46,120 bases of DNA from the NCBI GenBank assembly GCA_030426475.1, contig JAUHYR010000012.1, positions 1-46,120 of the forward strand, in the 5' to 3' direction. The position numbers were made by a program, and so were the translations under genes. Shown piece after piece: positions 3,609 through 46,120 of this stretch; the stretch's first letter is position 1; every line of letters begins with the position of its first letter. The notes beneath the pieces are model-generated. The model worked only from the letters and a program-made list of their open reading frames with translations, made no database searches and had not been told where the DNA came from. The DNA comes from Bacteroidia bacterium (GTDB lineage Bacteria > Bacteroidota > Bacteroidia > Flavobacteriales_E > Vicingaceae).

Positions 3609-3614
3609 CTAACC

Positions 3615-4562
3615 TTACTTCTTTTTAAAGATATAATCAGCAAAATAATTTTTACTGTCCGTTAGTTTATGAATGACCTCAAAATCAGTTGCCGAAAAAA
3701 TTTCTTTTATAATCTTGTCATTATACTTTCTTGAAATTTCGGTGTGAATTTTTTCTCCCTTTTTAAAATGATACGTTTTACCTATCTCGGAAATAGTGAC
3801 ATCTTGGTCAATCACACTTTGAATATAACTCTTGGCAACCCCACCCTCTTCAATATATTCCGGCAGATGAATAAAGTAGTTGACATCAAAATTTCCGTCC
3901 AATTCTCTATTTATTCTTCTTAGCAAGTTTAAATTAAACTCTCGGGTTAAGCCCTCTTTATCATTGTATGCGGGTAGTACTATTTCAGCAGATTTAATTA
4001 AATCTACACCTAGTAAAAGCTTATCACCTGCATTTAAATTTTCTCCCAGCTTGTAAATAAACTTAGTAGCCATAGTATCCGATAAATTCCCAATGTTTGA
4101 GCCTAAAAAAAGTACCGCTTTAGTATGATTGCTATCTTTTAAAGATTCTAAAACCTGAAAATAATCACCCTGTTGTTTTTCTACTGTAACCTCAGGAAAT
4201 GTCTCAGATAAATCTTGCTCTAAATTTTTAAGTGCATCTTTTGAAATGTCTATTGGAAAATAACCAAATTGATAGTTTTTTTCATCCAATACTTTTATCA
4301 GTTCTTTTGTTTTTGTTCCGTCTCCTGCTCCTAGTTCTATTAGCTCAAAGTATTTGTCAGGCTTTAGTTCTAGAAACTCAATAATCTTTTTCGTTTGCTT
4401 TTCAAAAATTTCAAATTCAGACCTTGTAAGATAATATTCGGGAGAATGCATGATTTTCACAAAAAGCTCATCTCCTACTTTATCATAAAAATATTTTGAA
4501 GGAAGTGATTTTGGCTCACTGCTTAAACCTGCATCCACATCTTTTTTAAATTGTTCTTTCAT
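3615..4562 (-). CDS. egtD: L-histidine N-alpha-methyltransferase (EgtD family)
   Basis: EgtD trimethylates histidine to hercynine using S-adenosylmethionine, the first step of ergothioneine synthesis. The 315-residue length fits the family. Characteristic segments are LPSKYFYDKVGDELF near the N-terminus, PEYYLTRSE, the SAM loop ELGAGDGTKT (about residue 76), FLGSNIGNL and LLLGVDLIK. The start ATG overlaps the egtB stop as ATGA, so the two are translationally coupled. The substrate (histidine rather than another alpha-amino acid) is inferred from family similarity and from the adjacent egtB. Confidence 0.9.
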   Translation of the reverse strand: MKEQFKKDVDAGLSSEPKSLPSKYFYDKVGDELFVKIMHSPEYYLTRSEFEIFEKQTKKIIEFLELKPDKYFELIELGAGDGTKTKELIKVLDEKNYQFGYFPIDISKDALKNLEQDLSETFPEVTVEKQQGDYFQVLESLKDSNHTKAVLFLGSNIGNLSDTMATKFIYKLGENLNAGDKLLLGVDLIKSAEIVLPAYNDKEGLTREFNLNLLRRINRELDGNFDVNYFIHLPEYIEEGGVAKSYIQSVIDQDVTISEIGKTYHFKKGEKIHTEISRKYNDKIIKEIFSATDFEVIHKLTDSKNYFADYIFKKK

Positions 4563-22610: not shown

Positions 22611-23346
22611 TATTTTATTTCTAGGAGCATCAGTTTTTGGGTTTTCACAAAGCGAAACCGAGCTTTACAAAAAAGGTATTGAACTAATGGATACTTATCA
22701 GAGTAAAGACGCCTACGAAGTTTTTACTAAACTATATGATATTGATCCTAATAATGCTGATTATGCTGCAAGGCTTAGCTCTAGTTGCTCTAGATATGGA
22801 GTAAGCATGCCAACTGAATCAGAAAGAATAAAATATTACGAAAAAGCCGAAGACCTTGCAAAAAAAGCAATCGCCCTAGACAATAAAAATGCAGAAGCAC
22901 ACTTTGCTTATGCTCTTGCTCTTGGAAGAATAAATGAAAATGCAAGTAGCAAACAAAAAATTGCCAATGCCAAATTAATTAAAACAGAGGCAGAAAAAAC
23001 AATAGCTCTCAACCCGAGACATGCCGGAGCATATCATGTTTTGGGAAGATACCACAAAACAATTGCCGGGTTTAATGCTATGGAAAAAGCAATGATTAAT
23101 GCCTTTTTTGGTGGTGTTCCTGAAGGTGGCACTTATGAAGATGCAGAAAATGCATTTATCATGTGTTGCAAATTAGAGCCCGATTATATTCTACATTTTT
23201 ACGAATTGGCCGACACCTATCGTTTAAATAAAAAAGTGGAGTTAGCTAAAGCTGTGTTAAAAAAAGCACTACAAATAAAAGTAACTACAGAAGAAGACAA
23301 AAAGCGATACAAAAACTGTCAGGAGTTACTTGAAGATCTTTCTTAA
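22594..23346 (+). CDS. Secreted TPR-repeat protein
   Basis: The start is ATG 22594 (or the ATG just before it at 22591), inside the end of the YihY gene; an in-frame TTG further up is unlikely. The signal peptide is MKKWISILFLGASVFGFSQ. The rest is helical with TPR-type units (KDAYEVFTKLYDIDPNNADYA, KYYEKAEDLAKKAIALD, NAEAHFAYALALG). The arrangement recalls regulator-of-microtubule-dynamics-like TPR proteins common in Bacteroidota. It probably scaffolds protein contacts in the periplasm. It overlaps the convergent flippase gene by 21 bases. Confidence 0.8.
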   Translation: MKKWISILFLGASVFGFSQSETELYKKGIELMDTYQSKDAYEVFTKLYDIDPNNADYAARLSSSCSRYGVSMPTESERIKYYEKAEDLAKKAIALDNKNAEAHFAYALALGRINENASSKQKIANAKLIKTEAEKTIALNPRHAGAYHVLGRYHKTIAGFNAMEKAMINAFFGGVPEGGTYEDAENAFIMCCKLEPDYILHFYELADTYRLNKKVELAKAVLKKALQIKVTTEEDKKRYKNCQELLEDLS

Positions 23347-24816
23347 TTTATTAATCCCCATATCAACGTACTCATTAATGTCTTCAGAAAGTTTAGTGAA
23401 GTAAACAATTACAATGTAGAGTATGCTTATTACAGAGCATCGTATCAATAAATCAATAAGGGAATTTCCTATTTTAGGGCTGTACATACTCACAATTACA
23501 AATAAAGCTATAATCAGTGCTGACAGGAAATGTTTGCCTCCAAAAGGCTGCATTTTCAGTTTAATCCAAACAAATATAAACTTAGCCAAGTTGAATATCA
23601 CCAGAGATAAAAAAGTTGCAAAAGCCGCTCCGGTTATTCCGTAAAGTGGTATAAAAACAATATTAAAACCAATAGTAGCTACCATAAGTATCATAATCAC
23701 AATGATATTGTATCTATAATACTTTGATGTCATAATAATTTCACCATTTACCCCTGAAGCTAAATTCACTAATTTTCCTAAAGCAATAAATAATACTACA
23801 TACTTCCCTTCTTGGTATTCCGTTTTTAGAAATATATCAATAATGTCATCTATTCCACACCATATCACTAAAAATATTAAACCGGTAATAATTAACTGAT
23901 TTAAGGCCGTTCTACTATACATATCGGCAATTTTAGGCAAATCATTATTTTTCCAGGCATCCGCAATAACAGGCATAGATATTTGCGACAATGAACGCCC
24001 GGGAATTTCAATTACCGAACCAATATAGCTGGCAATACCATAAATTCCTGTTTCTGCCAATCCTAACAAAGGCGCTATCATTAAAACATCTATTCTCCAA
24101 ACTAAAGTAGATGAAGCTGTTCCAAGCAATGAAAAACCCGCAAAACTTGAAATACTTTTCTTTAACTCTTTGGTAAAAAAACTAAAATTGATTCCCAACA
24201 ACCAATGCCCTAATCGCTTTATATAATAAGCCAGTGCAATAACCGGAATAACAAATGAAAGAGCATATAAGCTAATCATCCAGCTAAAATCAATTAGTTT
24301 GAAGTAAAAAACAACAACGACTGCTGCTACCAGCACTCTTGAAAAAACATCTCTTAAAATGGATGGAACGGTTATTCTCATTAGCGAACGAGAGTATGCA
24401 TCCAGAATATTAAAGAAAGTAAAATAGAAAAGTAATGGAATTACCAAATGATAATAATCGATAAATTCTTCCGAACGCTCTTCGTATATTTTTACAAATA
24501 CTCCCTTAAAAACAAAAAGAACGATAACAACCAAAGCAAACCCAATAAGCCCTGTTAGTATGGAAAAGCTTAAAATATTATTATGCTTTTTGTCTCTATC
24601 CTTGAAAAATGGAAAATATTTTAAAATAACACTTGGTATTCCCAGCAAAGTAACTTGACTAGCAACCGTAGCAAAATCAACTATAAGACGAATTAAACCA
24701 ATTTGAGCAGGCGCAAGAAATTGTACAAATAGTACAACTTGATTAAAATAACCTAAAAATGCTCCTACATAGGATACAATAGTTGCTTTAACGGCTTGTC
24801 GTTTAACTATACCCAA
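23326..24816 (-). CDS. Wzx-type polysaccharide flippase (MATE/MOP superfamily), TTG start
   Basis: The 496-residue protein has about 14 hydrophobic helices and the polysaccharide-export family pattern. The conserved start MGIVKRQAVKATIVSYVGAF begins at a TTG (24814-24816), since no ATG is available in frame and homologues, from memory, begin this way. It should move lipid-linked glycan units across the inner membrane. The nearby cluster of nucleotide-sugar and transferase genes (29387-36139) is a plausible source of substrate. It is divergent from the T9SS cargo pair. Confidence 0.88.
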   Translation of the reverse strand: MGIVKRQAVKATIVSYVGAFLGYFNQVVLFVQFLAPAQIGLIRLIVDFATVASQVTLLGIPSVILKYFPFFKDRDKKHNNILSFSILTGLIGFALVVIVLFVFKGVFVKIYEERSEEFIDYYHLVIPLLFYFTFFNILDAYSRSLMRITVPSILRDVFSRVLVAAVVVVFYFKLIDFSWMISLYALSFVIPVIALAYYIKRLGHWLLGINFSFFTKELKKSISSFAGFSLLGTASSTLVWRIDVLMIAPLLGLAETGIYGIASYIGSVIEIPGRSLSQISMPVIADAWKNNDLPKIADMYSRTALNQLIITGLIFLVIWCGIDDIIDIFLKTEYQEGKYVVLFIALGKLVNLASGVNGEIIMTSKYYRYNIIVIMILMVATIGFNIVFIPLYGITGAAFATFLSLVIFNLAKFIFVWIKLKMQPFGGKHFLSALIIALFVIVSMYSPKIGNSLIDLLIRCSVISILYIVIVYFTKLSEDINEYVDMGINKLRKIFK

Positions 24817-24847: not shown

Positions 24848-24855
24848 TAAATTTG
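24848..24855 (+). promoter_or_regulatory. -7 box of the T9SS cargo pair promoter
   Basis: TAAATTTG matches TAnnTTTG. The predicted leader before the ATG at 24878 is about 19 bases. It lies 3 bases from the flippase's opposing -7 box, so the two promoters may compete. Confidence 0.5.
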
Positions 24856-24877: not shown

Positions 24878-26629
24878 ATGAAGTTACTTAAACTTTTTTT
24901 GAGTGCTATTATTGTGAGCCTTATGTATGTTCCTTTGAAAGCACAAAATAACACATGGTATTTTGGAAATAATGCGGGAATGCATTTTTCAAATGGTTCT
25001 GTTATAGCTCTTACAAATGGAGCTGCTTTTGCATACGATTGTTCTGCCTCTATTTCTGATGGCTCTGGCAATTTAATTATATATACAGATGGCACTACCA
25101 TATACAACAAAAACCATGTTGCTATGGCGAATGGCACCGGAATATTAGGCAATATTAATGGTGGACAGGTTGCAATAATAGTCCCTCAACCAAGCTCAAC
25201 AAACATTTATTATGTTTTTACTGTAGACGCCTTTGCTGGTTCAAATGGATTTAGGTATCATGTAGTAGACATTAGCTTAAATTCAGGATTAGGAGCAGTT
25301 ACAAGTAAAAACAATTTGCTTTTCTCACCCTCTACTGAAAAACTTGATGCTATATATAATAGCTGCGATAATAGTTATTGGATATTAACTCATAGATGGA
25401 ATTCAAATACTTTTTCTGCATACAAACTAACCTCTACAGGATTAAACACTACTCCAGTAAATACAAATATTGGGGCAAATCTTTCCGGGAATACCAATAA
25501 CGGAATTGGTCAGCTAACTTTTTCCGATAATGGAAAAAGAGTTGCTAATGCTCTTTATGATATTGGAGCCTTTGAGGTTTATGATTTTAATATGAACACA
25601 GGAACTTTAACCAATTTAATTACTATTCCAAATTATACAAAAGCATGGGGTACTGCTTTTTCACCGGACAATTCATTATTATATATTACTCAGTGGTATG
25701 GACAAAATATTACACAATTTAACTTAAATGCAGGCTCTGTTTCAAACATAATTAATAGCGCTGTATCCGTAGGAAATGCTTCGGGTCCTGGAACTAGCGG
25801 CTACCATATAGGCTATATTGAACTTGCTCCTGATGACAAAATTTATGCGGCAGTATATGACGATACATATCTAGCTGTTATCAACTCTCCTAATAAAATA
25901 GGAATAAATTGTAATATGGTAGATAATGGATTCTATTTAGCCGGGAAGAAATCAAATGCAGGCTTATGTAGAACAGTTCAATATCCTAGACATCTTGATG
26001 AAATATCTATTTGTGAAGGGGATAGTGTTTTAATTTTTGGAAACTACGAATCAAATTCTGGAAAATATACTGATACAATTAAAACATCTTTAAATTGTGA
26101 CAGTATTGTCGTAATAAGTTTGGTAGCTAATCAAGCACCAAGTGTCACCATAAATAACTTTTCAAACGATACTGTATGTACTAAAACTCCACCGATACTA
26201 CTACCACAAGGGACTCCTTCCGGAGGATACTATACAGGATCTACAGGGATTACCGGAAATTATTTTGACCCTTCTCTAAGTGGCGTAGGGAATTTTTATG
26301 TAACATATAACTATATGGATAATAACGGTTGTAAAAACTCAGACTCCACTTTAATCACTGTTACTTATTGTTTAGGGATAAATGAACTCTTAAATAGTAA
26401 TATTTCTGTTTACCCTAACCCCAATGACGGAAACTTTATAATTGACTTAGGAGATTATGATGAATTTATTGAATATGAGGTAACATCTATTGATGGAAGA
26501 ATAATTGAGAGAGGAAGCAATACAAATAAATTAATTTTCGTCAATATAAGTAATCAGTCAAAAGGGGTTTACATAGTAAAAGTATCTGATAAATTAAGCT
26601 CTAAATTCTTTAGAATAAATAAGCTATAA
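24878..26629 (+). CDS. T9SS cargo protein 1: propeller-like domain plus type A sorting domain
   Basis: The 583-residue protein has a signal peptide (MKLLKLFLSAIIVSLMYVPLKAQ) and a repetitive beta-rich domain of about 350 residues beginning NTWYFGNNAGMHFS, with propeller-like blades (LTFSDNGKRVANALYD, AFSPDNSLLYITQWYG). A single ICEGDS...NCDS two-cysteine unit follows at about residues 378-407. The end is a type A T9SS sorting domain (NISVYPNPNDGNFII ... GVYIVKV). The protein should be secreted through the outer membrane and anchored or released. Ligand or enzyme activity is unknown. It is the upstream paralog of the next gene, 10 bases away. Confidence 0.88.
   Translation: MKLLKLFLSAIIVSLMYVPLKAQNNTWYFGNNAGMHFSNGSVIALTNGAAFAYDCSASISDGSGNLIIYTDGTTIYNKNHVAMANGTGILGNINGGQVAIIVPQPSSTNIYYVFTVDAFAGSNGFRYHVVDISLNSGLGAVTSKNNLLFSPSTEKLDAIYNSCDNSYWILTHRWNSNTFSAYKLTSTGLNTTPVNTNIGANLSGNTNNGIGQLTFSDNGKRVANALYDIGAFEVYDFNMNTGTLTNLITIPNYTKAWGTAFSPDNSLLYITQWYGQNITQFNLNAGSVSNIINSAVSVGNASGPGTSGYHIGYIELAPDDKIYAAVYDDTYLAVINSPNKIGINCNMVDNGFYLAGKKSNAGLCRTVQYPRHLDEISICEGDSVLIFGNYESNSGKYTDTIKTSLNCDSIVVISLVANQAPSVTINNFSNDTVCTKTPPILLPQGTPSGGYYTGSTGITGNYFDPSLSGVGNFYVTYNYMDNNGCKNSDSTLITVTYCLGINELLNSNISVYPNPNDGNFIIDLGDYDEFIEYEVTSIDGRIIERGSNTNKLIFVNISNQSKGVYIVKVSDKLSSKFFRINKL
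25661..25738 (+). repeat. Near-identical patch shared with 27420-27497 (copy 1)
   Basis: These 78 bases differ from the second copy at only three positions, while flanking codons in the paralogs carry many synonymous differences. This suggests local gene conversion. Confidence 0.7.
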
Positions 26630-26639
26630 GTTCAATTTC

Positions 26640-29411
26640 ATGAATTTTCTTAAATCCTTATTTATTCTAACGCTATTTTTCTCAACCTCATTATTTTTTG
26701 GTCAAAATAATACTTGGTATTTTGGGAATAATGCAGGAATGGACTTTTCAAGTGGACCTCCGGTACCACTTACAAATGGAGCATTATTTGCCTATGATTG
26801 TTCTTCATCAATATCTGACAGCCTAGGGAATCTACTATTTTACACTAATGGAGTAACTGTTTATAATAAAAATCATGTAGCAATGGCTAATGGTACGGGA
26901 CTACTTGGCAATAATAATGCAGGTCAGGTTGCTATTATAGTACCACAACCAAGTTCACCAAACATCTATTATATATTCACGGTTGATGTTTTTATAGGAG
27001 CAAATGGCTTCAGATATCATATTGTAGATATAAGTTTAAATAGTGGATTAGGTGGTGTTACTAGCAAAAATAATTTATTATTCTCACCTTCTACGGAGAG
27101 AATTGATGCTATTTATAATAGCTGTGACAATAGTTATTGGATTGTAACTCACAGATGGAATTCAAACACTTTTTCTTCCTATAAACTAACTTCAACTGGT
27201 CTAAATACAACTCCAACAAATAGTAATATTGGTTCAGTTCATTCCGGAATCACCAATAATGCTTTAGGTCAAATGACAATTTCTGACAATGGTAAAAAAA
27301 TTGTATGTGCCACATATGGGGCTGACAGGTTTGAGTTGTTTGATTATAATATGAATACCGGAGTTGTTTCAAATCCAATTACTATTAGTGGCTATACTAG
27401 AGCTTGGGGTGCTGCATTTTCACCGGACAATTCATTATTATATGTTACTCAGTGGTATGGACAAAACATTACACAATTTAACTTAAATGCAGGTTCTCCT
27501 ACAAACATCATAAATAGTGCAACAATTGTTGGTTCAGCATCAGGACCTGGTACAAATGGTTACCATATTGGTTATTTAGAGTTAGCACCGGATGATAAAA
27601 TTTATGCAGCTGTATATAATGATAGTTTCTTGGCTGTAATTAATTCGCCCAATAGTTTGGGTACGGCATGTAATCTTGTTGATAATGGTTTTCATTTAGG
27701 TGGCAAACTATCTCACGCTGGCTTATGCAGAACAGTTCAGAATCAAAGGCATTATTATAGCCAAAACATATGTCAAGGAGACAGCGCTTTAATTTTTGGA
27801 AACTATGAAAATACTGCCGGAAAATATAGGGACACCATAAAGACGTCTCTTGGGTGTGATAGTCTTGTTATTATTGATTTAACAATAGACCCTAATTTTC
27901 AAATAGTAAATAGTATCTCTATTTGTCAAGGAGATAGTGTCTTACTCCAAGGAGGTTATCAAAATTCTGCCGGAAGTTACTTTGATACTCTACAAACAAT
28001 TAATGGATGTGATAGTACAATCCAAACCAACTTAACATTAAACCCTGTTTTTTCATCTTCAACAAATACTTCTATATGTCAAGGAGATAGTATGTTTTTA
28101 CAAGGAAATTATCAAAAGACTCCAGGAATGTACTTCGATACTCTTCAAAGTATATTAAGTTGTGATAGTATAATACAAATAAATTTATCTATTAATCCAA
28201 CATATACATTTTCAACAAATACATCAATTTGCCAAGGAGACAGCATACTTTTTCAAAATAGCTATTATAAAAATACGGGAGTATATACTGTTAGTATGAA
28301 TACCAGTTTTGGATGTGATAGTGCTTTCACCCTTAATTTAACAACAAATCCCATCTACTCTATTTCAATTTTAGATACTATTTGTTTAGGAGATAGCTTA
28401 TTGTTTGAAAATAATTATTTTTCTTCTAGTGGTAATTATCCCGTAACCATCAGCTCTTCAAAAGGGTGTGATAGTATTAGAACTCTTTTACTTACAGTCA
28501 AACCAACTACTTCTTCATCAACAAACCTATCTATTTGTCAAGGAGATAGCATTTTCCTTCAAGGTAATTATCAATTTACTTCAGGAATTTATTTTGATAC
28601 TCTACAAGCAATTAATGGATGTGATAGCATTATCCAAAGTAGTTTATCTATAATTCCAAATATTACAACTATTAATAATCTTTCTATCTGCCAAGGAGAT
28701 AGTATTTTCATTCAAGGAGGCTATCAAGTCAAGTCAGGTATATACTATGATACTCTTCAAGCTCAATCAACATGTGACAGTATCATTCAGTCAAATCTTA
28801 CAGTAAACCCAACATATAGCTCTGTAAGCTATGACACTATTTGTAATGGTGACAGTTCCTTGTTTCAGGGGACATATTATTATTCAACAGGTAACTTTCA
28901 AACAAACTATACAAGTTCATTGGGTTGTGATAGCACCTTTTACTTAAATCTAACTGTTAACTCTGCAAACTCAATCAGTCTATATGACACTATTTGTAAC
29001 GGTGACAGCATTCTTTTATTTGAAAATTGGTATGATGAAGAAGGAGTATATATTGATACTATAAAATCTAATGACGGTTGCGACAGTTCTTATTACATGA
29101 TTAATGTTTATGAAGTTTACTGTGGAAAGCTAATTATACCCAATGTATTTAGTCCAAATGGTGATGGAAAAAATGATCTCTTTTTAGTAGATGGAAACAT
29201 ACAAGAGTTAGAAATTAGCATTTATAACAGATGGGGAGAATTACTACATAATTCAAAAGGAAAAAATGCTTATTGGGATGGTTACACTTATACAGGAAAA
29301 AAAGCCTCTGACGGAACTTATTATTATGTTTTAAATATTCAATATACAGATGAAACGGGAACTCAAAAAAGTGAAGTATTTACCGGTCACTTAACGCTTA
29401 CAAGAGATTGA
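26640..29411 (+). CDS. T9SS cargo protein 2: propeller-like domain, nine Cys repeats, type B sorting domain
   Basis: The 923-residue protein starts with a signal peptide (MNFLKSLFILTLFFSTSLFFG) and a domain of about 350 residues clearly paralogous to that of the preceding gene. Residues 377-829 hold nine 51-residue repeats of the form ICQGDS ... GCDS, each with two cysteines 28 residues apart. The end (about 830-923) is a gliding-motility-associated 'type B' sorting domain: PNVFSPNGDGKNDLF, YNRWGELL and ASDGTYYYVL. It is probably a long surface adhesin-like stalk. The last 25 bases overlap the convergent glycosyltransferase gene. Ligand is unknown. Confidence 0.9.
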   Translation: MNFLKSLFILTLFFSTSLFFGQNNTWYFGNNAGMDFSSGPPVPLTNGALFAYDCSSSISDSLGNLLFYTNGVTVYNKNHVAMANGTGLLGNNNAGQVAIIVPQPSSPNIYYIFTVDVFIGANGFRYHIVDISLNSGLGGVTSKNNLLFSPSTERIDAIYNSCDNSYWIVTHRWNSNTFSSYKLTSTGLNTTPTNSNIGSVHSGITNNALGQMTISDNGKKIVCATYGADRFELFDYNMNTGVVSNPITISGYTRAWGAAFSPDNSLLYVTQWYGQNITQFNLNAGSPTNIINSATIVGSASGPGTNGYHIGYLELAPDDKIYAAVYNDSFLAVINSPNSLGTACNLVDNGFHLGGKLSHAGLCRTVQNQRHYYSQNICQGDSALIFGNYENTAGKYRDTIKTSLGCDSLVIIDLTIDPNFQIVNSISICQGDSVLLQGGYQNSAGSYFDTLQTINGCDSTIQTNLTLNPVFSSSTNTSICQGDSMFLQGNYQKTPGMYFDTLQSILSCDSIIQINLSINPTYTFSTNTSICQGDSILFQNSYYKNTGVYTVSMNTSFGCDSAFTLNLTTNPIYSISILDTICLGDSLLFENNYFSSSGNYPVTISSSKGCDSIRTLLLTVKPTTSSSTNLSICQGDSIFLQGNYQFTSGIYFDTLQAINGCDSIIQSSLSIIPNITTINNLSICQGDSIFIQGGYQVKSGIYYDTLQAQSTCDSIIQSNLTVNPTYSSVSYDTICNGDSSLFQGTYYYSTGNFQTNYTSSLGCDSTFYLNLTVNSANSISLYDTICNGDSILLFENWYDEEGVYIDTIKSNDGCDSSYYMINVYEVYCGKLIIPNVFSPNGDGKNDLFLVDGNIQELEISIYNRWGELLHNSKGKNAYWDGYTYTGKKASDGTYYYVLNIQYTDETGTQKSEVFTGHLTLTRD
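27420..27497 (+). repeat. Near-identical patch shared with 25661-25738 (copy 2)
   Basis: Second copy of the 78-base patch with three substitutions relative to the first. It encodes the SPDNSLLY...QWYG blade of the propeller-like domain. Confidence 0.7.
27768..29126 (+). repeat. Nine in-frame tandem repeats, 153-nt period
   Basis: The codon for the first Cys of each repeat starts at 27771, 27924, 28077, 28230, 28383, 28536, 28689, 28842 and 28995, exactly 153 nt apart each time. The second Cys codon lies 84 nt after the first, as checked in the first and last units. Repeats 2, 3, 6 and 7 are most alike (CQGDS ... YFDTLQ or YYDTLQ). Repeats 5, 8 and 9 are more diverged (CLGDS, CNGDS). No insertion or deletion has broken the frame. 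Confidence 0.9.
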
Positions 29412-30538
29412 TATAATTGAACCATATTATTCACTATTTCATTTTTATCATAATACTTCTGAATAAAGCTTATTCCTTTTTGCCCTAGTTTTACTCTTAA
29501 TTCTCTGCTTTTAATCAACTCTTTTAATTTTTCATAGAGATTATCAATATTGCAATTGTAAATAGCTAATTCGCCATTAAAATCAGCTTCAATTTCATCC
29601 ATTAAATAACAAATAACCGGCTTTCCAAAACTCATAGCTTCAATAGACAATGAAGCGAAACTACCTAAAAGCATTTGGTCAATTACAATATCGGCTTTAT
29701 GTTTTAGAATATCCATTACCTCTTCATGAGGCATTCGATAAATCTGTATATACTCAAAATCAATTCCCTCAGACTTTAACTTATCTAATACACATTCCAC
29801 AAACTTAGTTCCTTTAACCAACTGATTTGTTGGTGCATGGACAATAACTACTTTTTCATTTTGCTGGGGTTCTTCAAATTTCAACTCATCTGATGAGGCT
29901 ATACCTATATTATTTATAAATACATCTTTTATTACTTTTTCTTTAGGGATAACCGTTAATGCACTTGCATACAAATCTCTATAAGCAAGGAACTTGTGGA
30001 CAAATAAATTCTGCCACCACATCATTATTTGCTTGCGGGTATCGTATTTGGGTATATCGTATTGAAACAGAAAAATCCACTTAATCCATTGTATCAGAAA
30101 AAAATTACTTGACCATATTTTTTTGGTAGTAGAGGATGTAGAAAACTGTATATGTTTTACATAAGGATTTCGTTTGCTTTCTACTTTCCCCACTAATCTT
30201 ACCTCAGAACCACAATACGTCATAATAATTTTCTTACCAAATAGTCGGAGAATTGGCAAGTCCAGATTGAACATCAACAAACTTTTACCAAAGTAAAAAT
30301 GAAAAACATCAAAACTGAAAAGACACTTCCAAAAGAAATAAAAAGGTACATAAATAAACCTTTTAAAAAGATGGTTCTTTGTAAAGTCTATATTCTCATC
30401 ATGATTATGTATAAGTTTATTTGCTTTGTAAACGATAAATTTAGACACGTACCCTCTCTCCCGTTCTGCTTCAGCAAGATGCCCGCCTATTCCGGCAACA
30501 TTGTAAGGACCATGAAATATTCTAAGTTGAGATTTCAA
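29387..30538 (-). CDS. GT4-like glycosyltransferase (TTG start)
   Basis: The 383-residue protein resembles GT-B glycosyltransferases: an N-terminal RIFHGPYNVAGIGGHLAEAE, a central KKIIMTYCGSEVR, then a Rossmann half with VVIVHAPTNQLVKGTKFVEC and the donor-site SLSIEAMSFGKPVICYLMDE. The start is a TTG at 30536-30538, as no ATG is available between it and the upstream stop. It is the last gene of the glycan cluster, 6 bases after the methyltransferase gene. Donor and acceptor are unknown. Confidence 0.83.
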   Translation of the reverse strand: MKSQLRIFHGPYNVAGIGGHLAEAERERGYVSKFIVYKANKLIHNHDENIDFTKNHLFKRFIYVPFYFFWKCLFSFDVFHFYFGKSLLMFNLDLPILRLFGKKIIMTYCGSEVRLVGKVESKRNPYVKHIQFSTSSTTKKIWSSNFFLIQWIKWIFLFQYDIPKYDTRKQIMMWWQNLFVHKFLAYRDLYASALTVIPKEKVIKDVFINNIGIASSDELKFEEPQQNEKVVIVHAPTNQLVKGTKFVECVLDKLKSEGIDFEYIQIYRMPHEEVMDILKHKADIVIDQMLLGSFASLSIEAMSFGKPVICYLMDEIEADFNGELAIYNCNIDNLYEKLKELIKSRELRVKLGQKGISFIQKYYDKNEIVNNMVQLYQSLVSVK

Positions 30539-30544
30539 GTAAAC

Positions 30545-31510
30545 TTATTTAACGTAAATTTTCTTTAGCGAACCTAAGTCTCTTTGAAACCAAAATGGTG
30601 CTTGAGGCTCAGGAAGAAAATGATTTATTACATCGGATTTTTTAGACTTTACAGCTCTGATAAACAATTCAGGATGTTTTTTATTACGCTCCACTAATTC
30701 AAAACCTCTTTTTTCTAAAAATTCCTTTACATAGTTATAATCTAACCTTCTATTAATTAAAGGGGAATAATAATCATGCAGCATATTTAACTTTTTTCTA
30801 TCTCCCTTAGCTTTTTTCATTAGAAATTTCAGTTTATCTGTTTCTGTGTCTAGTAAATTGTAGGCTATTCTTTCTTTAAAAAGCTCAATATCATCGGTCA
30901 TGTTAAGTCTTTCTCTACCATATAAATAAAGAAATAACACCCCATCATCTTTCACCAAACTGCAAAGTTGATTCAGTGATTTATTAAAGCTTTGGCAATG
31001 GTGAACCACACCCCAAGAATAAACTAAATCAAATTTTTGTCCGCTTAATTTTTCCGCAACAGTTTCTAATGGTGATAATGTAAACTGCTTTTCCACATCA
31101 CATTCTTTCAGCGCTTCTTTGGTAGCGTCTATAGCTGATTGATTAATATCAACACAAGTCATATCACCACCAAGTTGGGCTAAACCGTAGCTCCATCTCC
31201 CGTTACCACATCCAGCATCCAGCACTTTTTTACCTTTTATCCAATCTCTTGAAATTTGCAATTCCTCTTTTTCAATAATATCTGCCACATTAGATTTAAA
31301 CCATGGGTCACTTAATAAAAAATCTCCGTCCGGAAATTTTTTCCATTGGTCGGAAAATGAAACAGCAGTTTGAGCAGCTGTTAGGTTAACAGATTCTTCC
31401 AAATCATGAACCATATTATAAAGCAACTTGTATAGATTGTCTGTTTGCTTTCGTTGCGACTTTAGTCTTCTTTTAATGTCTCGGTATATTCTAACTAATT
31501 TCTTAAGCAT
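30545..31510 (-). CDS. SAM-dependent class I methyltransferase of the glycan cluster
   Basis: The 321-residue protein has the class I SAM motif KKVLDAGCGNGRWSYGLAQL at about residue 93, motif II-like VDINQSAI, and FDLVYSWGVVHHC. A basic, helical N-terminal 60 residues precedes the catalytic domain. Within this operon it probably methylates a sugar or lipid-linked glycan. It lies 3 bases after the sulfotransferase gene. Confidence 0.85.
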   Translation of the reverse strand: MLKKLVRIYRDIKRRLKSQRKQTDNLYKLLYNMVHDLEESVNLTAAQTAVSFSDQWKKFPDGDFLLSDPWFKSNVADIIEKEELQISRDWIKGKKVLDAGCGNGRWSYGLAQLGGDMTCVDINQSAIDATKEALKECDVEKQFTLSPLETVAEKLSGQKFDLVYSWGVVHHCQSFNKSLNQLCSLVKDDGVLFLYLYGRERLNMTDDIELFKERIAYNLLDTETDKLKFLMKKAKGDRKKLNMLHDYYSPLINRRLDYNYVKEFLEKRGFELVERNKKHPELFIRAVKSKKSDVINHFLPEPQAPFWFQRDLGSLKKIYVK

Positions 31511-31513
31511 ATT

Positions 31514-32422
31514 TTATCGTTTCCAATGAGATAAATCTCTGTTTAATATTTTTTCAGCCTTTTCTATATCCTTCATAAAAAAGTCTACTAACTCTTTTCT
31601 AAATTCTACAGAAAGAGGTTTTCGCTTTTCAAATTTAGTATTTGCATTTTTAACCATGTTTAAGAGGCTATAATTTGCAGGAATTCCTATTTTTCTTTTA
31701 ACTCTTGTAAGCTTTTTGCTACTTAATTTTCTACTAATTTTAAGCAATAAAGGAGACTTAACTCTTTTATTGGCATTTACCTTTGAAAAATCTTTAAAGC
31801 CATAATATTTTACACCTAAAAACTTAAGTGTAGACTTATATGTTTCTAGTGGTCTCTTATTTAAATCTGTATTTAAAATAACTTTTACATTTTCGGGAGA
31901 AACTTGCGAATAAAGTCGCTCTAATTGTTCACCAAAACTTGCTACTCTCCCATACCACAACACCTTGGGGTCAACACATTCATCAGGCACTCTTTTATCT
32001 TCCCATCTTAGCTTTCTTAAACTCCATGCTTCCTGAAAGGTTTTAGCATCTTCAACACCCTGATATACTAATTCAGAATACAAAGAATAAATCATATCTA
32101 CAGGATTTCTTAGAATAACTATAAACTTAGCATTGGGAAATCTTTTAAGAATATTGCTAACCGCCACTTCAGAAAATAAGTACCAAATAGAGGCTTCTCC
32201 TGCCATTTTTATTTTATGATTGTTTCTGAAACAAGTCTTTAAATAATCTTCATAAGAGTTAAATAGTCCAAAGTCATCTGAAAAATCAGTATTAAAAAAA
32301 TTAGGTTCTTTTGGCTCTGATATCAATATGTCTCGGTTAGAGTTAAGATAGGTTGCCAGCGCAGTTGTTCCACACTTAGGTGCTCCAATAATAAAAAAAT
32401 CCGGTTCTCTTAGCTTCTCCAT
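31514..32422 (-). CDS. PAPS-dependent sulfotransferase
   Basis: The 302-residue protein shows the 5'-phosphosulfate loop IIGAPKCGTTAL (about residues 11-22). The 3'-phosphate site is in FIVILRNPVDMIYSLYSE. The ending DIEKAEKILNRDLSHW is typical of carbohydrate sulfotransferases of the sulfotransfer_1 type. It should transfer sulfate from PAPS to a sugar hydroxyl. Sulfation of surface glycan is inferred from the neighbouring epimerases and transferases. It follows the epimerase gene by 8 bases. Confidence 0.9.
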   Translation of the reverse strand: MEKLREPDFFIIGAPKCGTTALATYLNSNRDILISEPKEPNFFNTDFSDDFGLFNSYEDYLKTCFRNNHKIKMAGEASIWYLFSEVAVSNILKRFPNAKFIVILRNPVDMIYSLYSELVYQGVEDAKTFQEAWSLRKLRWEDKRVPDECVDPKVLWYGRVASFGEQLERLYSQVSPENVKVILNTDLNKRPLETYKSTLKFLGVKYYGFKDFSKVNANKRVKSPLLLKISRKLSSKKLTRVKRKIGIPANYSLLNMVKNANTKFEKRKPLSVEFRKELVDFFMKDIEKAEKILNRDLSHWKR

Positions 32423-32430
32423 TTCAAGCT

Positions 32431-33285
32431 CTAAATATAGTGACTTGTATCTAGAATGCTTTTATATTTAATATCCAAATTAAACGGATTATAGTTTAAT
32501 CCACAAAGGCTTCCTGCAATACCATCCTTTTCAACAATGTTTGGTTCAATTGATAAAGCTTCAGCTATTTTATGTACCACTTGTTTTAAGGAAACTTTTT
32601 CTTCCCCTGAAATATTTATTATTAACGGGTTACTGGAACTTATATGTGTTAAAAAACCAATTAATAAATCACAAATATTATCCACATGTATAGGCGTCAT
32701 CCAAAGTCCATTGCCACCGCTTAGTGTAATTTGCTTTTTTTCTTTTATCGAACTAATGATGTTTGGAATCAACATATTTTCTTGCCCTTTACCAAACACC
32801 GTAAATACTCTACCAATAAATACTTCAAAAGAATTAGCATATTGTTTCACCAATTGCTCTGCAGAAAGTTTAGAAGCTGCGTAATATGAATTTGCATTCA
32901 ATTTATCATCAACAGAAAGTATTTTATCAGAAGGCTGATAAACATTGCCTGTAGATGCGTAAAAAAACTTTTTTACTCCATTTAATCTAACCCATTCCAA
33001 TAAAAGTTGCGTACTTTTTATATTCACATTAAACATGTCATTAGCTCCATCAGGAAAATTCCTATATTGTTTAGATTGTGCTAAATGATAAACCACTTCT
33101 ATATCAGAAGGAAGTTGCTGAATAAAATCATCTTTAGATAAATCGGCTACTATTACATGAAGATTTTCAGCTACAGACACTGAAGCATTTCTTTGTAAAG
33201 CACACACATAGTGTCCTTCATTTACTAAGCGATTAATTAAGCTTTTCGCTACAAAACCACTAGAACCTGTTACTAAAATCTTCAT
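32431..33285 (-). CDS. NAD-dependent epimerase/dehydratase (extended SDR)
   Basis: The 284-residue protein begins ILVTGSSGFVAKSLI (NAD-binding GxxGxxx pattern). Its catalytic region has FFYASTGNVYQPS and YYAASK (Tyr-x-x-x-Lys). FTVFGKGQENMLIPNII and WMTPIHVDNICDL fit extended SDRs acting on nucleotide sugars. The product is unknown. Its start overlaps the asnB stop as ATGA. Confidence 0.87.
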   Translation of the reverse strand: MKILVTGSSGFVAKSLINRLVNEGHYVCALQRNASVSVAENLHVIVADLSKDDFIQQLPSDIEVVYHLAQSKQYRNFPDGANDMFNVNIKSTQLLLEWVRLNGVKKFFYASTGNVYQPSDKILSVDDKLNANSYYAASKLSAEQLVKQYANSFEVFIGRVFTVFGKGQENMLIPNIISSIKEKKQITLSGGNGLWMTPIHVDNICDLLIGFLTHISSSNPLIINISGEEKVSLKQVVHKIAEALSIEPNIVEKDGIAGSLCGLNYNPFNLDIKYKSILDTSHYI

Positions 33286-35156
33286 TGATAATTCTCTTTT
33301 AGCCAGTTTTCAAAATATAATAAAGACCAAATAAACAAACGTCTGTTTTGCTTGCCTTCCATGTGTTCATCTACCAACTTTTTCACGGCATTAAAATCCA
33401 TAAACTCATATATAAGCGCTTTGGAGTGCCCAATAAGTGCCTTTACATACTCTATACTTTCTCCCTTAAACCAACTAGCGTCAGGTGCTGAGAAGCCCTG
33501 TTTAGCATTACCGGTAACCTCTGTTGGAATATATTTTTCCATTGCTTTTCGCATCAAAAGTTTACCATCTTTTGTTTTGTTAAAATACTGCTCTAGTTTA
33601 TGGCCGGGTTCATTTTCATTCAGCCTAACAACTTCTTTTAAATTCCCTAGTTTATATTTAACCGGAACTTTTAAAGCAAAATCAACTAAATCATTATCTA
33701 AAAAGGGAACTCTAGATTCAAGGCTATGAGCCATACTTAATTTGTCTTCTACAATTAAAAGTCCATGCAAAAACGTCTTAGTTTCTAAATACATGGATAG
33801 GTTGACATACTGCTCAGGACTGGAAATTTCCGAAATATCTAATCCTTTAAAAACATCCCTAAAAATATCTCTTGTCCAAACATGAGAAACTTCATTCCAA
33901 ATTGGCGCAAATACTTCATGTATGGTTTTGTTAGGAATTAATCGTTGCCAAAAGAGATAGTATTTGTCAATATAATTTTCAAAATCATCGTTTACCACTG
34001 CCCGGTAATATCGCCAAGGGTAACCCCCAAACAATTCATCACCACCTGTGCCTCCCAATACAACCTTCACAAATTTACCCGCTAATTTTGCCGCATAATA
34101 GTTTGGGTAGGATTGTCCCACTCTGGGTTCTTCCAGATGATAGGCCATAGCCGGCATAACTCTTTCCATATCACCGGACTTTAAAACCATTTCATAATGC
34201 TCGGTTTTAAAAAGATAGGACATGTATTCTGCTCGTTGGCGCTCATCATAATTAATCTCAATCCCGGAAGCAGAATTTAAGTCAAATCCACAGGTAAAAG
34301 ACTTGATATATGGGTTTTCCATTGCGGAAATCGCTGTTATTGAACCTGAATCCATTCCTCCGCTTAAATAGGTTCCAATCTCCACATCACTCAACAATTG
34401 GCGTTTTACTGCTCTAGAAAAATGATGGTCAAAAGCTTCTAAGTATTCATTATGAGAACTATATTCTTCTTGTTCTGAAAAATTATAATCCCAAAATTGA
34501 TTTAGATTAATTTCTCCCGTTGAATTAACATACATATAATGTCCGGCCGGGAAAAGCTTTACATTTTTAAAAAAAGTTTTATCAGTAAATAAATTCTGAA
34601 AGGTAAAATACTCTAAAACAGCTTCTTTGTCTATTTCCGGTTTGAAATTAAGGTAAGAGGTAATTCCTTTTATTTCACTTGAAAAAACAAATCTTTCGGA
34701 TTCATTAAAATAGTAAAGGGGTTTTATACCATATCTATCTCGAGCTAAAAAGAACTGCTTAGTTGTCTTATCATAAATAGAAAAGGCAAACATTCCATTT
34801 AGCTTATCTAAAAGCTTTTGTTTCCATTCTTGGTAACCCACTAAAACAACTTCGGTATCAGAGTTTGATTTAAACGAATATCCTTTTGCTTCAAGCTCTG
34901 CTTTTAACTCTTTGAAATTGTAAATCTCTCCATTAAAGGTAATTACATAATTTTCATCAGAAGAGAGCATTGGTTGAGAAGCATTATCTGATAAATCAAT
35001 AATAGAAAGTCGGTTATGAGTAAAAGCAATATTATTATCTAGATAAAAGCCATTTCCATCAGGACCTCTGTGATGAAGAGTTTTTATTACTCTGCTCAGG
35101 TCTGCTTTATTAATAGTGCTTCCTGAAAAATGATATGCTCCGGCAATTCCACACAT
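33282..35156 (-). CDS. asnB: Glutamine-hydrolysing asparagine synthase family protein
   Basis: The 624-residue protein starts MCGIAGAY with the catalytic Cys2 of class II glutamine amidotransferases, followed by TLHHRGPDGNGFY and FNGEIYNFKEL. The C-terminal ATP-pyrophosphatase domain has YLSGGMDSGSI and a later LESRVPFLDNDLVDFAL. In surface-glycan loci such enzymes often amidate a uronic acid or aminosugar and do not make free asparagine, so a glycan role is likely here. It sits 2 bases after the epimerase gene. Confidence 0.9.
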   Translation of the reverse strand: MCGIAGAYHFSGSTINKADLSRVIKTLHHRGPDGNGFYLDNNIAFTHNRLSIIDLSDNASQPMLSSDENYVITFNGEIYNFKELKAELEAKGYSFKSNSDTEVVLVGYQEWKQKLLDKLNGMFAFSIYDKTTKQFFLARDRYGIKPLYYFNESERFVFSSEIKGITSYLNFKPEIDKEAVLEYFTFQNLFTDKTFFKNVKLFPAGHYMYVNSTGEINLNQFWDYNFSEQEEYSSHNEYLEAFDHHFSRAVKRQLLSDVEIGTYLSGGMDSGSITAISAMENPYIKSFTCGFDLNSASGIEINYDERQRAEYMSYLFKTEHYEMVLKSGDMERVMPAMAYHLEEPRVGQSYPNYYAAKLAGKFVKVVLGGTGGDELFGGYPWRYYRAVVNDDFENYIDKYYLFWQRLIPNKTIHEVFAPIWNEVSHVWTRDIFRDVFKGLDISEISSPEQYVNLSMYLETKTFLHGLLIVEDKLSMAHSLESRVPFLDNDLVDFALKVPVKYKLGNLKEVVRLNENEPGHKLEQYFNKTKDGKLLMRKAMEKYIPTEVTGNAKQGFSAPDASWFKGESIEYVKALIGHSKALIYEFMDFNAVKKLVDEHMEGKQNRRLFIWSLLYFENWLKENYQ

Positions 35157-35158
35157 TC

Positions 35159-36139
35159 CTAAGCCTTATCAATTCCTTTAGCAATTCGCCAGTCAATCAA
35201 TTTTTGTAAACCCTGCTCTAATGAATAGCTATATTCAAAATTTATTTCTTGCTTAGCTTTTTGTTTTGAACCAATTCTGTTTTTCACAAACTGTCTTGCA
35301 TCATCTTCTGCGTAAGGTTTATAAATAACTTTTAAATCTGATTCTTTAAGTTCTAAAATGGTATCACAAAGTTGTTTAATGGTAGTTTGCACTTCAGTAC
35401 CTACATTATAAAAACCCAAATTTGTATCACTTTTTAATGCTTCTACATTACATCTTGCTACATCTTCCACATAAATAAAGTCATAGGCTTGACTTCCATC
35501 TCCATTGATGGTTGGAGCCTCATTAGCTTCTATTTTGTTAAGCATAATTGGAACTACACCACTATATACCGCATGTTGGTCTTGTCCAGGTCCATAAACG
35601 TTCATATACCTCAATCCAATTACAGGTAATCCATATCTATCGTTATAAGCTGTACACATGGCTTCTCCGGCTATTTTTGTAGAGCCATAGAAGTTCTTGT
35701 TATTGAAAGGATGTTCTTCTGTCATAGGAACTTGCACTGCATCCCCATAAACTGAAGCTGATGATGAATAAATTAACTTTTTAATCTTATTCTTTACACA
35801 AGCTTCCAATACATTAAATGTACCAGCTATATTTACTTCAAATGCTGTTCTTGGGAAATCTTTACAATGCAATAGCCACATTGCCGCTAAATGAAATACA
35901 TAATCCACATCTTTCATTGCAGCATCAAGTATATCTGTCTCTCTCACATCACCACCTAAAGGAAAAATTGAACATCTAGGGTCTTTTAAGGATTCCTCTA
36001 TATTTTCATGCTTTCCCCTAGCAAAATTGTCATAAATAATGACTTCTTTAACTTCTTCTTTTAGTAATTCACTCACTACAAAGCCACCGATAAATCCAGC
36101 TCCGCCAATTACTAAAACCTTACTACCTTTTAATTCCAT
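35159..36139 (-). CDS. NAD-dependent nucleotide-sugar epimerase, first gene of the glycan cluster
   Basis: The 326-residue extended SDR begins SKVLVIGGAGFIGGFVV and has YSSSASVYGD, then YGSTK for the catalytic Tyr/Lys, and RYMNVYGPGQDQHAVYSG. These fit UDP-sugar 4-epimerases and related enzymes of O-antigen or capsule synthesis. It leads a run of six minus-strand genes with gaps of 8 bases or less. The exact sugar is not decidable by eye. Confidence 0.87.
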   Translation of the reverse strand: MELKGSKVLVIGGAGFIGGFVVSELLKEEVKEVIIYDNFARGKHENIEESLKDPRCSIFPLGGDVRETDILDAAMKDVDYVFHLAAMWLLHCKDFPRTAFEVNIAGTFNVLEACVKNKIKKLIYSSSASVYGDAVQVPMTEEHPFNNKNFYGSTKIAGEAMCTAYNDRYGLPVIGLRYMNVYGPGQDQHAVYSGVVPIMLNKIEANEAPTINGDGSQAYDFIYVEDVARCNVEALKSDTNLGFYNVGTEVQTTIKQLCDTILELKESDLKVIYKPYAEDDARQFVKNRIGSKQKAKQEINFEYSYSLEQGLQKLIDWRIAKGIDKA

Positions 36140-37595: not shown

Positions 37596-39596
37596 TTATT
37601 TAGATAAAATTAAAAATTCGGTTCTTCTGTTTTTTGCTCTACCTGCCTCAGTTTCATTACTTGCTATTGGTTGGGTTTCACCAAATCCGTCATAAGAAAG
37701 TCGGTTTGCATTTATTCCCTTGGATATTAAGTAGTTTTGAACTTCACGAGCTCTGTTTTTTGAAAGCACCAGATTATCGTTATTGTCACCCACATTATCG
37801 GTATGTCCGTGTATTGCAATTTTAACTGTTGGATTAATTTCTAAAAACTCTACAAACCCATTTAATATGAACTTGGATTGTTTATTCAACTCATAGGAAT
37901 TGGTTGCAAAGTTGATGTCGTTTATAGTATATTTCTCTTCCGGTTTAATTTCTTTGATTTCCATCTGTTCCTGCTTTACAGGCTTGCCAATTACTTTTTC
38001 GTTAGAAGAAATTAATTGAGAAGTAAAGGCATATCCTTCTTTTTTAGCAGTTAAAAGAACGTCCTCCTCTTCTTCTACCGCTACTACTGCCACATAATTA
38101 CCGGTTTCTTCATTTACCACACCTTTTTGAGTTCGCTCAGAATCAACTGTTTTTAACTCAATTTCAACATTTTCAGGCACTTTTCCTGATTCTGATTTAA
38201 TGCTTCCTTCCACAAAAACTACTTTCTTGGGCCTAGCAGATTCATATAATTCAAAGGAATATATATCTAAACTTGTTCCGTCTAAATTGGAGGCAAAGTA
38301 GCCATATTTTCCGTCTGTACTCACAATAAACCCATGCTCATCTTTATCTGTATTAATAGGATTACCTAAGTTTTTCGGAGAGTAAAAATTTCCTTTATCA
38401 TCCATTTTAGAATAAAAGATATCAAAACCACCCATTCCGATATGACCGTCTGAAGAAAAATAAAGCGTGTAACTATCGGCATGCATAAAAGGAGATTTGT
38501 CGTTACCAGTAGTATTTATTGAGTCACCAAGATTTATTGGGTTGCCCCATTTACCGTTGGGTAGTCTTTCCACCTTATAGATATCCATTCCACCAAAATT
38601 GTCTTGCTCTCTGGCGCTAGTAAAATAAAGTGTTTGATTGTCAGATGAAATACATGGTTGACCTTCCCAAGTTAAACGCCCATTAATATGGTCACCAATG
38701 GACTTTAGTTCACTCCACTGACCTTGTTTTCTTTCCGAGTAATAGATATCGGCATTATCATATAGACGCCCATCTTTCATTGGCTCCAAGTTTACTACAG
38801 TAATGAATAAAAGGCTATTATCAACTGAAATAGAGGTACCGCCCTGATATTGTCCAATATTAAGTCTTTCAGGCATGTCCAAACCAGAAGAAAATGTATT
38901 TGTTCCTACTCTTCTACTTTCTGTAAGCAACTCTACTTTTTGATACCGGTCGAATGTTGCTTTGGTATCAACTTCTTTCTCACGAGTAAAATACAAATAC
39001 CTATTATCAGGAGAAAGCATCGGTAAATATTCATTCCATTTTGTATTAACTCCACCTTTTACCTTAACCGGTTCAAAAGGCACCTTATTACTTATTAAGA
39101 ATTCATATGCACTAATATTGTTTAAATATTTCTTAGCAGCAGCAATCTCTTTCTGGTACGAATCGTTATTCTCTAAAAATTGCTTAAAGTAAATTTTTGC
39201 ATCAGTGTAATTTTTATCCATATAATAATACTCACCAAGTTTAATAGACATAATAGCTCCGGCATACTTAGGACATATCTCGGTAATTTCTTTCATTTTA
39301 GCAATACAAATCCGTTCGTAATTAAGGCTTTTGTTAAAAGTATTGGGATTTTCAGCAGCTATTTCAGCTTGTTTCTTATACAAAGAAGATAGTTCATCCA
39401 AAATTTCAACGTATTCAGGAAAGTCTTTATGAATTTGTTCTAATTGAGCTATTTTATCACCTAAACTAACAGCGTTTACCCTATACTTATCATAAGCTTT
39501 TAAAGCTTTCTTAGATGGTTCCCAGCAACGATTTTCTTGAGAAAACATAGAACTAACAACACCAAAAAATAAGATGTAAACCCAAATTCGTTTCAT
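37596..39596 (-). CDS. PorE-like outer-membrane protein: TPR, PD40 propeller, CRD, OmpA
   Basis: With the start at ATG 39596 (666 residues) the signal peptide is MKRIWVYILFFGVVSSMFSQ. TPR-like helices (about 30-160) are followed by a PD40/WD40-like propeller (about 170-430; LSPDNRYLYFTRE, ISSDNQTLYFTSAR, MGGFDIFYSKMDD). A carboxypeptidase-regulatory beta sandwich follows at about 455-530. An OmpA peptidoglycan-binding domain covers 558-666 (IHGHTDNVG, LSKNRAREVQNYL). This domain order equals that of PorE, a T9SS-associated cell-wall anchor in Porphyromonas. Many paralogs exist in Bacteroidota, so the specific role is not proven. Confidence 0.88.
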   Translation of the reverse strand: MKRIWVYILFFGVVSSMFSQENRCWEPSKKALKAYDKYRVNAVSLGDKIAQLEQIHKDFPEYVEILDELSSLYKKQAEIAAENPNTFNKSLNYERICIAKMKEITEICPKYAGAIMSIKLGEYYYMDKNYTDAKIYFKQFLENNDSYQKEIAAAKKYLNNISAYEFLISNKVPFEPVKVKGGVNTKWNEYLPMLSPDNRYLYFTREKEVDTKATFDRYQKVELLTESRRVGTNTFSSGLDMPERLNIGQYQGGTSISVDNSLLFITVVNLEPMKDGRLYDNADIYYSERKQGQWSELKSIGDHINGRLTWEGQPCISSDNQTLYFTSAREQDNFGGMDIYKVERLPNGKWGNPINLGDSINTTGNDKSPFMHADSYTLYFSSDGHIGMGGFDIFYSKMDDKGNFYSPKNLGNPINTDKDEHGFIVSTDGKYGYFASNLDGTSLDIYSFELYESARPKKVVFVEGSIKSESGKVPENVEIELKTVDSERTQKGVVNEETGNYVAVVAVEEEEDVLLTAKKEGYAFTSQLISSNEKVIGKPVKQEQMEIKEIKPEEKYTINDINFATNSYELNKQSKFILNGFVEFLEINPTVKIAIHGHTDNVGDNNDNLVLSKNRAREVQNYLISKGINANRLSYDGFGETQPIASNETEAGRAKNRRTEFLILSK

Positions 39597-39602
39597 GCAA
39601 TG

Positions 39603-39629
39603 CAAAGGTAAAATAAGTTTAAGCTTCAA
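39603..39629 (-). promoter_or_regulatory. Promoter of the PorE-like gene, nearly leaderless
   Basis: TTG (39627-39629), 16 bases, TACCTTTG (39603-39610) on the minus strand. The expected transcription start is only a few bases before ATG 39596. This rules out the ATG at 39629 and suggests an almost leaderless mRNA. The spacer is at the short end of the known range. Confidence 0.5.
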
Positions 39630-45579: not shown

Positions 45580-46120
45580 TTACTTAACCACTACTCTTTC
45601 AACAGCAGTGCCAAGTTTTGATGTCAGTTTAATGAAGTAAACGCCCTTAGCATTCGCTAAGTTTACATTTACTGTGTTTTGACCTTCTTTACCTGATACG
45701 TTTTCAGTATATACTACTTTGCCGGCTATGTCTATCACTTCCATCTTCACTGACTCATTATCTGCTAGCGTTAAACTAACCGCAAATTGTCCGTTATTTG
45801 GATTTGGTGATACTTTTACTCCATTGGTAAAGTTATGCTCGTCTAATCCTACCGTGTTTGGAGTAACTTGCATGGTAGTCGTATCATTGCCACAGTCTCC
45901 ATAAGCTATTAATGTTGCAGTATAGGTTCCTGCTGAAGAATATACGTGTACAGGATTAGTTAATGTACTTGTTGGTGATCCATCTCCAAAATCCCACAGA
46001 TATGAAGTAGCATTAGTAGAGGTATTGGTAAAGGTATAGGTTAGGAATGAAGAGGCTGCGGTAAATGAAGCGGTAGCACTTGGTAAAGTTCCAATTACTA
46101 TATTGTCATTTCCACTACCA
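45580..46120 (-). CDS. T9SS cargo protein: PKD domain plus type A sorting domain (5' part outside window)
   Basis: The minus-strand frame stays open to the window edge, so only the last 179 residues are visible. They contain a PKD domain (FTNTSTNATSYLWDFGDGSP, SSAGTYTATLIAYG) and then a type A T9SS sorting domain (VKVSPNPNNGQFAVSL ... AKGVYFIKLTSKLG). A short ATG-initiated frame at 45873 is only the tail of this gene. The protein is secreted via T9SS; the missing N-terminal part decides its function. Confidence 0.85.
   Translation of the reverse strand, partial: GSGNDNIVIGTLPSATASFTAASSFLTYTFTNTSTNATSYLWDFGDGSPTSTLTNPVHVYSSAGTYTATLIAYGDCGNDTTTMQVTPNTVGLDEHNFTNGVKVSPNPNNGQFAVSLTLADNESVKMEVIDIAGKVVYTENVSGKEGQNTVNVNLANAKGVYFIKLTSKLGTAVERVVVK

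Follow-up and report, generated by a model that had tools for sequence, protein, structure and literature searches.

Exchanged T9SS sorting tails in a tandem pair of secreted propeller proteins from a Bacteroidia genome

The gene pair and its surroundings

The window considered here is a stretch of 46,120 nucleotides from the genome of a Bacteroidia bacterium. It carries, on the + strand, two genes separated by 10 bp, at the coordinates already given in a preliminary description of this DNA. The first gene (24878..26629) encodes protein A, of 583 amino acids, which is composed from N- to C-terminus of a signal peptide, a propeller, one ICxGDS repeat, an Ig-like stretch and a type A T9SS tail. 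The second gene (26640..29411) encodes protein B, of 923 amino acids, in which a signal peptide and a propeller are followed by nine ICxGDS repeats and a type B tail. In view of the 10-bp gap, the two genes would be co-transcribed. A Bacteroidota-type -7 promoter element, TAnnTTTG, is found at 24848..24855 (+), 22 bp 5′ of the start codon of A. It is the sole such element just upstream of the pair, and is a match to the consensus only, which has 27 matches on the + strand of the window.

The pair is flanked on both sides by genes of a surface polysaccharide cluster lying on the opposite strand. A flippase gene (23326-24816) precedes it. On the other side, from 29387 to 36139, are found genes for a glycosyltransferase, a methyltransferase, a sulfotransferase, two epimerases and an asparagine synthase, the glycosyltransferase being convergent with B and next to it. 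These surroundings point to no direct link with the pair. Another type A tail occurs near the end of the window (45583-45813, -), within a 179-residue open reading frame.

The propeller head

The head corresponds to residues 23-367 of A (24944..25978, +) and 22-366 of B (26703..27737, +), with 77% identity between the two. An AlphaFold2 model of the head, calculated from an alignment with twelve relatives, has a pLDDT of 83.2 and a pTM of 0.83. Its closest solved structure is PDB 1l0q (Z 23.3, rmsd 3.3 over 278 residues), which is also the top profile match (E 2.8e-11); TolB is matched as well (E 1.4e-7). The head is therefore predicted with good confidence to be a YVTN/WD40-like beta-propeller, and what had been guessed from the letters to be a propeller finds support in predicted structure and profile matches. 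1l0q is the YVTN-type propeller of an archaeal surface layer protein. It resembles the head of A and B in fold and profile, but identity in the structural alignment is 13% and 1l0q has no T9SS tail. The predicted common fold would thus say nothing of the function of the head.

Extent and limit of the homology

A and B are 68% identical across 464 aligned residues, far above chance. The mature N-termini, reported earlier to align over about 375 residues, do so without a gap from the first glutamine (Q23 in A, Q22 in B) to about residue 418. The signal peptides that precede them (residues 1-22 of A, 24878..24943, +, with glutamine at mature position +1; residues 1-21 of B, 26640..26702, +) are unalike, with a third-position identity of 0.14. 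At the other end, the last element common to both proteins is the single ICxGDS repeat of A (residues 378-419, 26009..26134, +). These 42 residues pair with the first repeat of B, at 67% identity versus 50-57% for the next best repeats. The likeness stops abruptly after this first "ICxGDS...CDS" repeat, and the proteins are unrelated beyond it. Past the junction, B has eight further repeats, whereas A ends in a module of about 165 residues, tail included.

The nine 51-residue repeats of B (27768..29129, +) probably form a stalk. They are 45-53% identical to repeats of type B proteins encoded on two other contigs of the same genome (C116 and C120). A model of the repeats and tail, built without an alignment, has a pLDDT of 45 and is too poor for use. 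Since the exchange point adjoins a kind of repeat that is also found in other cargo proteins, recombination at the ICxGDS repeat is suggested as the way in which the C-terminal parts were exchanged. Within the propeller, a tract at residues 262-290 of A (25661..25747, +) has 92% of its synonymous codons identical to those of B, versus 53% overall (permutation p 0.0012), which hints at later gene conversion between the two genes.

Sorting tails and secretion machinery

Both Pfam and NCBIfam models recognize the tails above curated cut-offs, so that the original assignment of a type A tail to the first protein and a type B tail to the second holds. The type A sorting domain (residues 511-577 of A, 26408..26608, +) scores 38.1 bits with PF18962 (cut-off 27) and 36.1 with TIGR04183 (cut-off 23). 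The type B domain (CHU_C; residues 832-922 of B, 29133..29405, +) scores 73.6 bits with PF13585 (cut-off 27) and 59.9 with TIGR04131 (cut-off 35). The genome encodes about 106 type A and about 35 type B tails in total, together with the T9SS sortase PorU (NF033707, 1088.6 bits, contig C134) and PorP/SprF proteins, twelve of which pass the cut-off while one falls short of it. Among these, the paralogues on contigs C134 and C133 and the weak match on C81 have no type B gene next to them. GldB, GldH and GldJ also have homologues in the genome; their presence is no proof that B is a client of the gliding machinery.

A cognate PorP/SprF gene directly 3′ of a type B gene is a common arrangement, though not a universal one. 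In this genome it is observed for 10 of the approximately 35 type B genes, whereas B has none beside it, and no PorP/SprF gene was found on its contig (C8). In a tree of the type B tails of the genome, PorP-linked and orphan tails segregate (4 changes versus 8.8 expected, 0 of 500 shuffles), and the tails nearest to that of B are orphans. This position would fit a model where B is served by a shared orphan shuttle. Such a shuttle is known in Flavobacterium johnsoniae, where the orphan type B substrates Fjoh_1123, Fjoh_1720 and Fjoh_4934 have Fjoh_1677 in common (PMC12618676). Like B, these proteins have a type B tail and no neighbouring PorP/SprF gene; they belong, however, to another species, and the likeness is drawn from tail and gene context, not from the passengers.

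Two further observations concern the arrangement of such genes. On contig C72 of the same genome (about 2200-3700), the 3′ ends of a + strand type B gene and a - strand type A gene face each other, with a few hundred bases between them. In the window itself, a protein with PD40 and OmpA domains is encoded at 37596-39629 (-), about 8 kb from B and with no PorP gene alongside. It scores far under the cut-offs of the PorE (236.7 of 600 bits) and CHU_0125 (269.4 of 620) models.

Origin of the tails

The C-terminal module of A (residues 419-583, 26132..26626, +) recurs as a whole in two proteins of the same genome, encoded in arrays on contigs C112 and C79, with 52-53% identity. The tail is 44-53% identical to those of ten own-genome proteins on C79, C112 and C59, which are mostly encoded in tandem arrays and have N-termini without match to the propeller. 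In contrast, it is just 24-35% identical to the tails of propeller relatives. In the tail tree, the tail of A falls inside a clade with the ten array proteins (support 100). An AU test in which it was forced to join the tails of the five A-tailed propeller relatives closest to A rejected its derivation from the propeller kin (p-AU 0.001). Taken together, the tail clade, the rejected alternative and the module common to two array proteins argue that the C-terminal part of A would have been replaced from own-genome cargo, or would share a recent common pool with it. The tail of B shows 52% identity over 69 residues with an own-genome tail and about 41-49% with those of propeller relatives, values with which either source would be compatible. 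Separate phylogenies of propellers and tails, which had been put forward as a check, were calculated and disagree with each other, as tail exchange would predict.

The arrays on C79 (7110-15827) and C112 (3927 onwards) deserve a description of their own. They are tandem arrays of type A cargo, with near-alike tails and differing N-terminal domains (glycine-rich/HYR, and an unnamed cysteine-rich domain). The heads are more varied than the tails, which resemble a shared cassette.

Relatives of the propeller and switching of tail type

Relatives of the head occur in 32 of the 60 genomes searched at the class level, and the head is thus widespread in the class. A and B are mutual closest relatives and form a sister pair (support 99), whereas relatives outside this genome have at most about 51% identity to them. 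An order-level search covered 46 genomes of one family, in which the genome of the window is the sole one of its genus. Among the genomes searched, the A/B pair is seen in this one genome of its genus, and plasmid records contain distant relatives only (at most 36% identity). As far as the searched genomes show, the duplication is confined to this lineage.

A readable tail is present in 92 homologues, 58 of type B and 34 of type A. On the propeller tree of these sequences, tail type changes 18 times, with at least 10 changes forced by well-supported branches; when the rows with the longest branches are left out, 17 changes are counted, at least 7 of them on well-supported branches. Tail type nevertheless clusters on the tree beyond chance (18 changes versus 27.7 after shuffling, 0-1 of 500). 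Both types coexist in 11 of the 19 genomes having two or more typed homologues. The median stalk length is 432 amino acids in B-tailed homologues versus 44 in A-tailed ones, a link that becomes borderline when relatedness is taken into account (median sign-test p 0.07). A PorP gene lies directly 3′ in 4 of the 54 assessable B-tailed homologues.

Two other genomes contain mixed-tail sister pairs. In one (G047), the two genes (L112 and L137; support 97) are not in tandem. In the other (G060), from another genus of the same family, an A-tailed copy is followed by a B-tailed copy, with a 153-aa gene between them. These copies form their own sister pair (support 99), independent of the pair in the window, so that the A-then-B order arose at least twice. 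A PorP gene is located 4 bp 3′ of the B copy and is followed by a PorE-like gene with TPR, PD40 and OmpA domains, which scores 313.5 bits with the PorE model, under the cut-off of 600. This locus (contig C91, 1723-10199) is possibly a complete dual-delivery cassette. The row formed by a type B gene, PorP and a PorE-like gene has been linked with static anchoring (PMC9143113, PMC12618676). It recalls the PG1035-PorP-PorE complex of Porphyromonas gingivalis, where PorP-PorE binds a type B protein, PG1035, that lacks A-LPS modification (PMC9143113). The B gene of the window differs from this system, as it has no PorP and the only PorE-like/OmpA gene is the one 8 kb off on the other strand.

Possible fates of A and B

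In T9SS, type A cargo uses the shuttle PorV and type B cargo PorP/SprF-like shuttles (PMC12618676, PMC9143113). Cargo with a type A tail is either anchored statically or released, whereas cargo with a type B tail either moves by gliding or is anchored statically, according to the particular tail (PMC12618676). In F. johnsoniae, tail swaps among SprB, RemA and AmyB re-route the cargo (PMC12618676). The view that T9SS handles the two tail types differently is thus borne out by published work. The F. johnsoniae chimeras resemble A and B in that one cargo carries either a type A or a type B tail, and their post-export fate is set by the tail. However, they are laboratory constructs in one species, whereas the exchange between A and B is natural, recurrent in the family, and has left both versions side by side. 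Since the published swaps show that tails decide the fate of cargo, it is likely, and by this analogy well founded, that A and B would differ in fate and location.

One may imagine, on the contrary, that the tails are interchangeable export tags, that A and B share one destination and that their exchange reflects neutral drift after duplication. The frequent flips of tail type within the family, and the coexistence of both types in more than half of the multi-copy genomes, are what would be expected if the choice mattered little. Yet tail type is clustered on the tree and associated with stalk length, and engineered swaps in F. johnsoniae do change fate (PMC12618676), which makes this explanation unlikely.

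The preliminary description had gone further than distinct fates, offering as an example that one protein would be attached by an A-LPS-like glycan and the other held or moved with the gliding machinery; in its strong form, A would be fixed by the glycan and B carried by that machinery. The Gld homologues of the genome are compatible with this, and the tails of SprB and Fjoh_4750 direct cargo to gliding tracks (PMC12618676). However, Fjoh_3952 tails are static, as are most Fjoh_1123 foci (PMC12618676), so that a type B tail cannot be equated with gliding. Because the type B copy of G060 stands in the arrangement proposed for static anchoring (PMC9143113), and because B is an orphan without an adjoining SprF, gliding of B would not be favoured. 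By analogy with other type A cargo, release of A into the medium would be just as possible as attachment to a glycan. Hence the idea of different fates for one head is upheld by the two tail families and by published re-routing, the gliding-specific part of it is weakened by the literature and by the G060 context, and the combination of a gliding B with a glycan-bound A appears quite improbable.

Slightly less probable still is that secretion of B is poor, or that B is a dead end, its cognate PorP/SprF having been lost or never present. The lack of an adjacent shuttle gene, which ten other type B genes of the genome do possess, could be read in this way. The gene is nevertheless intact, and the rarity of a 3′ PorP among B-tailed homologues makes its absence unexceptional. 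Moreover, the B tail is closest to other orphan tails, and the F. johnsoniae orphans use one common shuttle (PMC12618676). Finally, an assembly artefact or a chance similarity is unlikely, in view of the 23% divergence between the copies and of the independent pair with the same order.

The model preferred here is that a secreted propeller protein was duplicated in tandem within this lineage to give A and B, that C-terminal parts were exchanged, and that the two proteins probably end in two surface locations. The duplication, the unrelated tails, the disagreement between the trees of propellers and of tails and the repeated exchange in the family can be read directly from the sequences. In this model, at least A would have acquired its tail from type A cargo of an unrelated family encoded in the same genome. 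The two proteins would be made together from one transcript and would cross the outer membrane via the same T9SS translocon before separating. A would be handed to PorV/PorU, lose its tail and be fixed near the surface or released. B would be handed to a PorP/SprF-like shuttle, keep its tail and be held off the surface on its nine-repeat stalk, more likely static than moving with the gliding machinery. One binding or catalytic head would thereby occupy two positions on the surface simultaneously.

Concluding remarks

At the level of sequence comparison, natural tail exchange between tandem paralogues, together with repeated switching in one propeller family, can be considered confirmed and well supported. 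All the parts involved were already known; what is new is the natural recurrence of the exchange, and no mention of natural switching of tail type was found in the open-access literature searched. That T9SS tails carry the address is known from laboratory chimeras. In the natural pairs described here, the same head is combined with a differing tail, stalk and signal peptide. The A/B pair is a natural repeat of the laboratory tail-swap experiment that altered the destination on the cell surface, and with this one gene pair it can be tested whether the tail decides fate in nature, and why both fates are kept. In addition, at least seven to ten well-supported switches are available for a comparative study of what changes along with the tail, such as stalk length and linkage to PorP/PorE. 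It is tempting to imagine, although the odds are put somewhat below even, that evolution may have switched tail type repeatedly to re-route a surface protein, and that co-transcribed A/B pairs, with at least two independent origins, would put one propeller head in two surface locations simultaneously.
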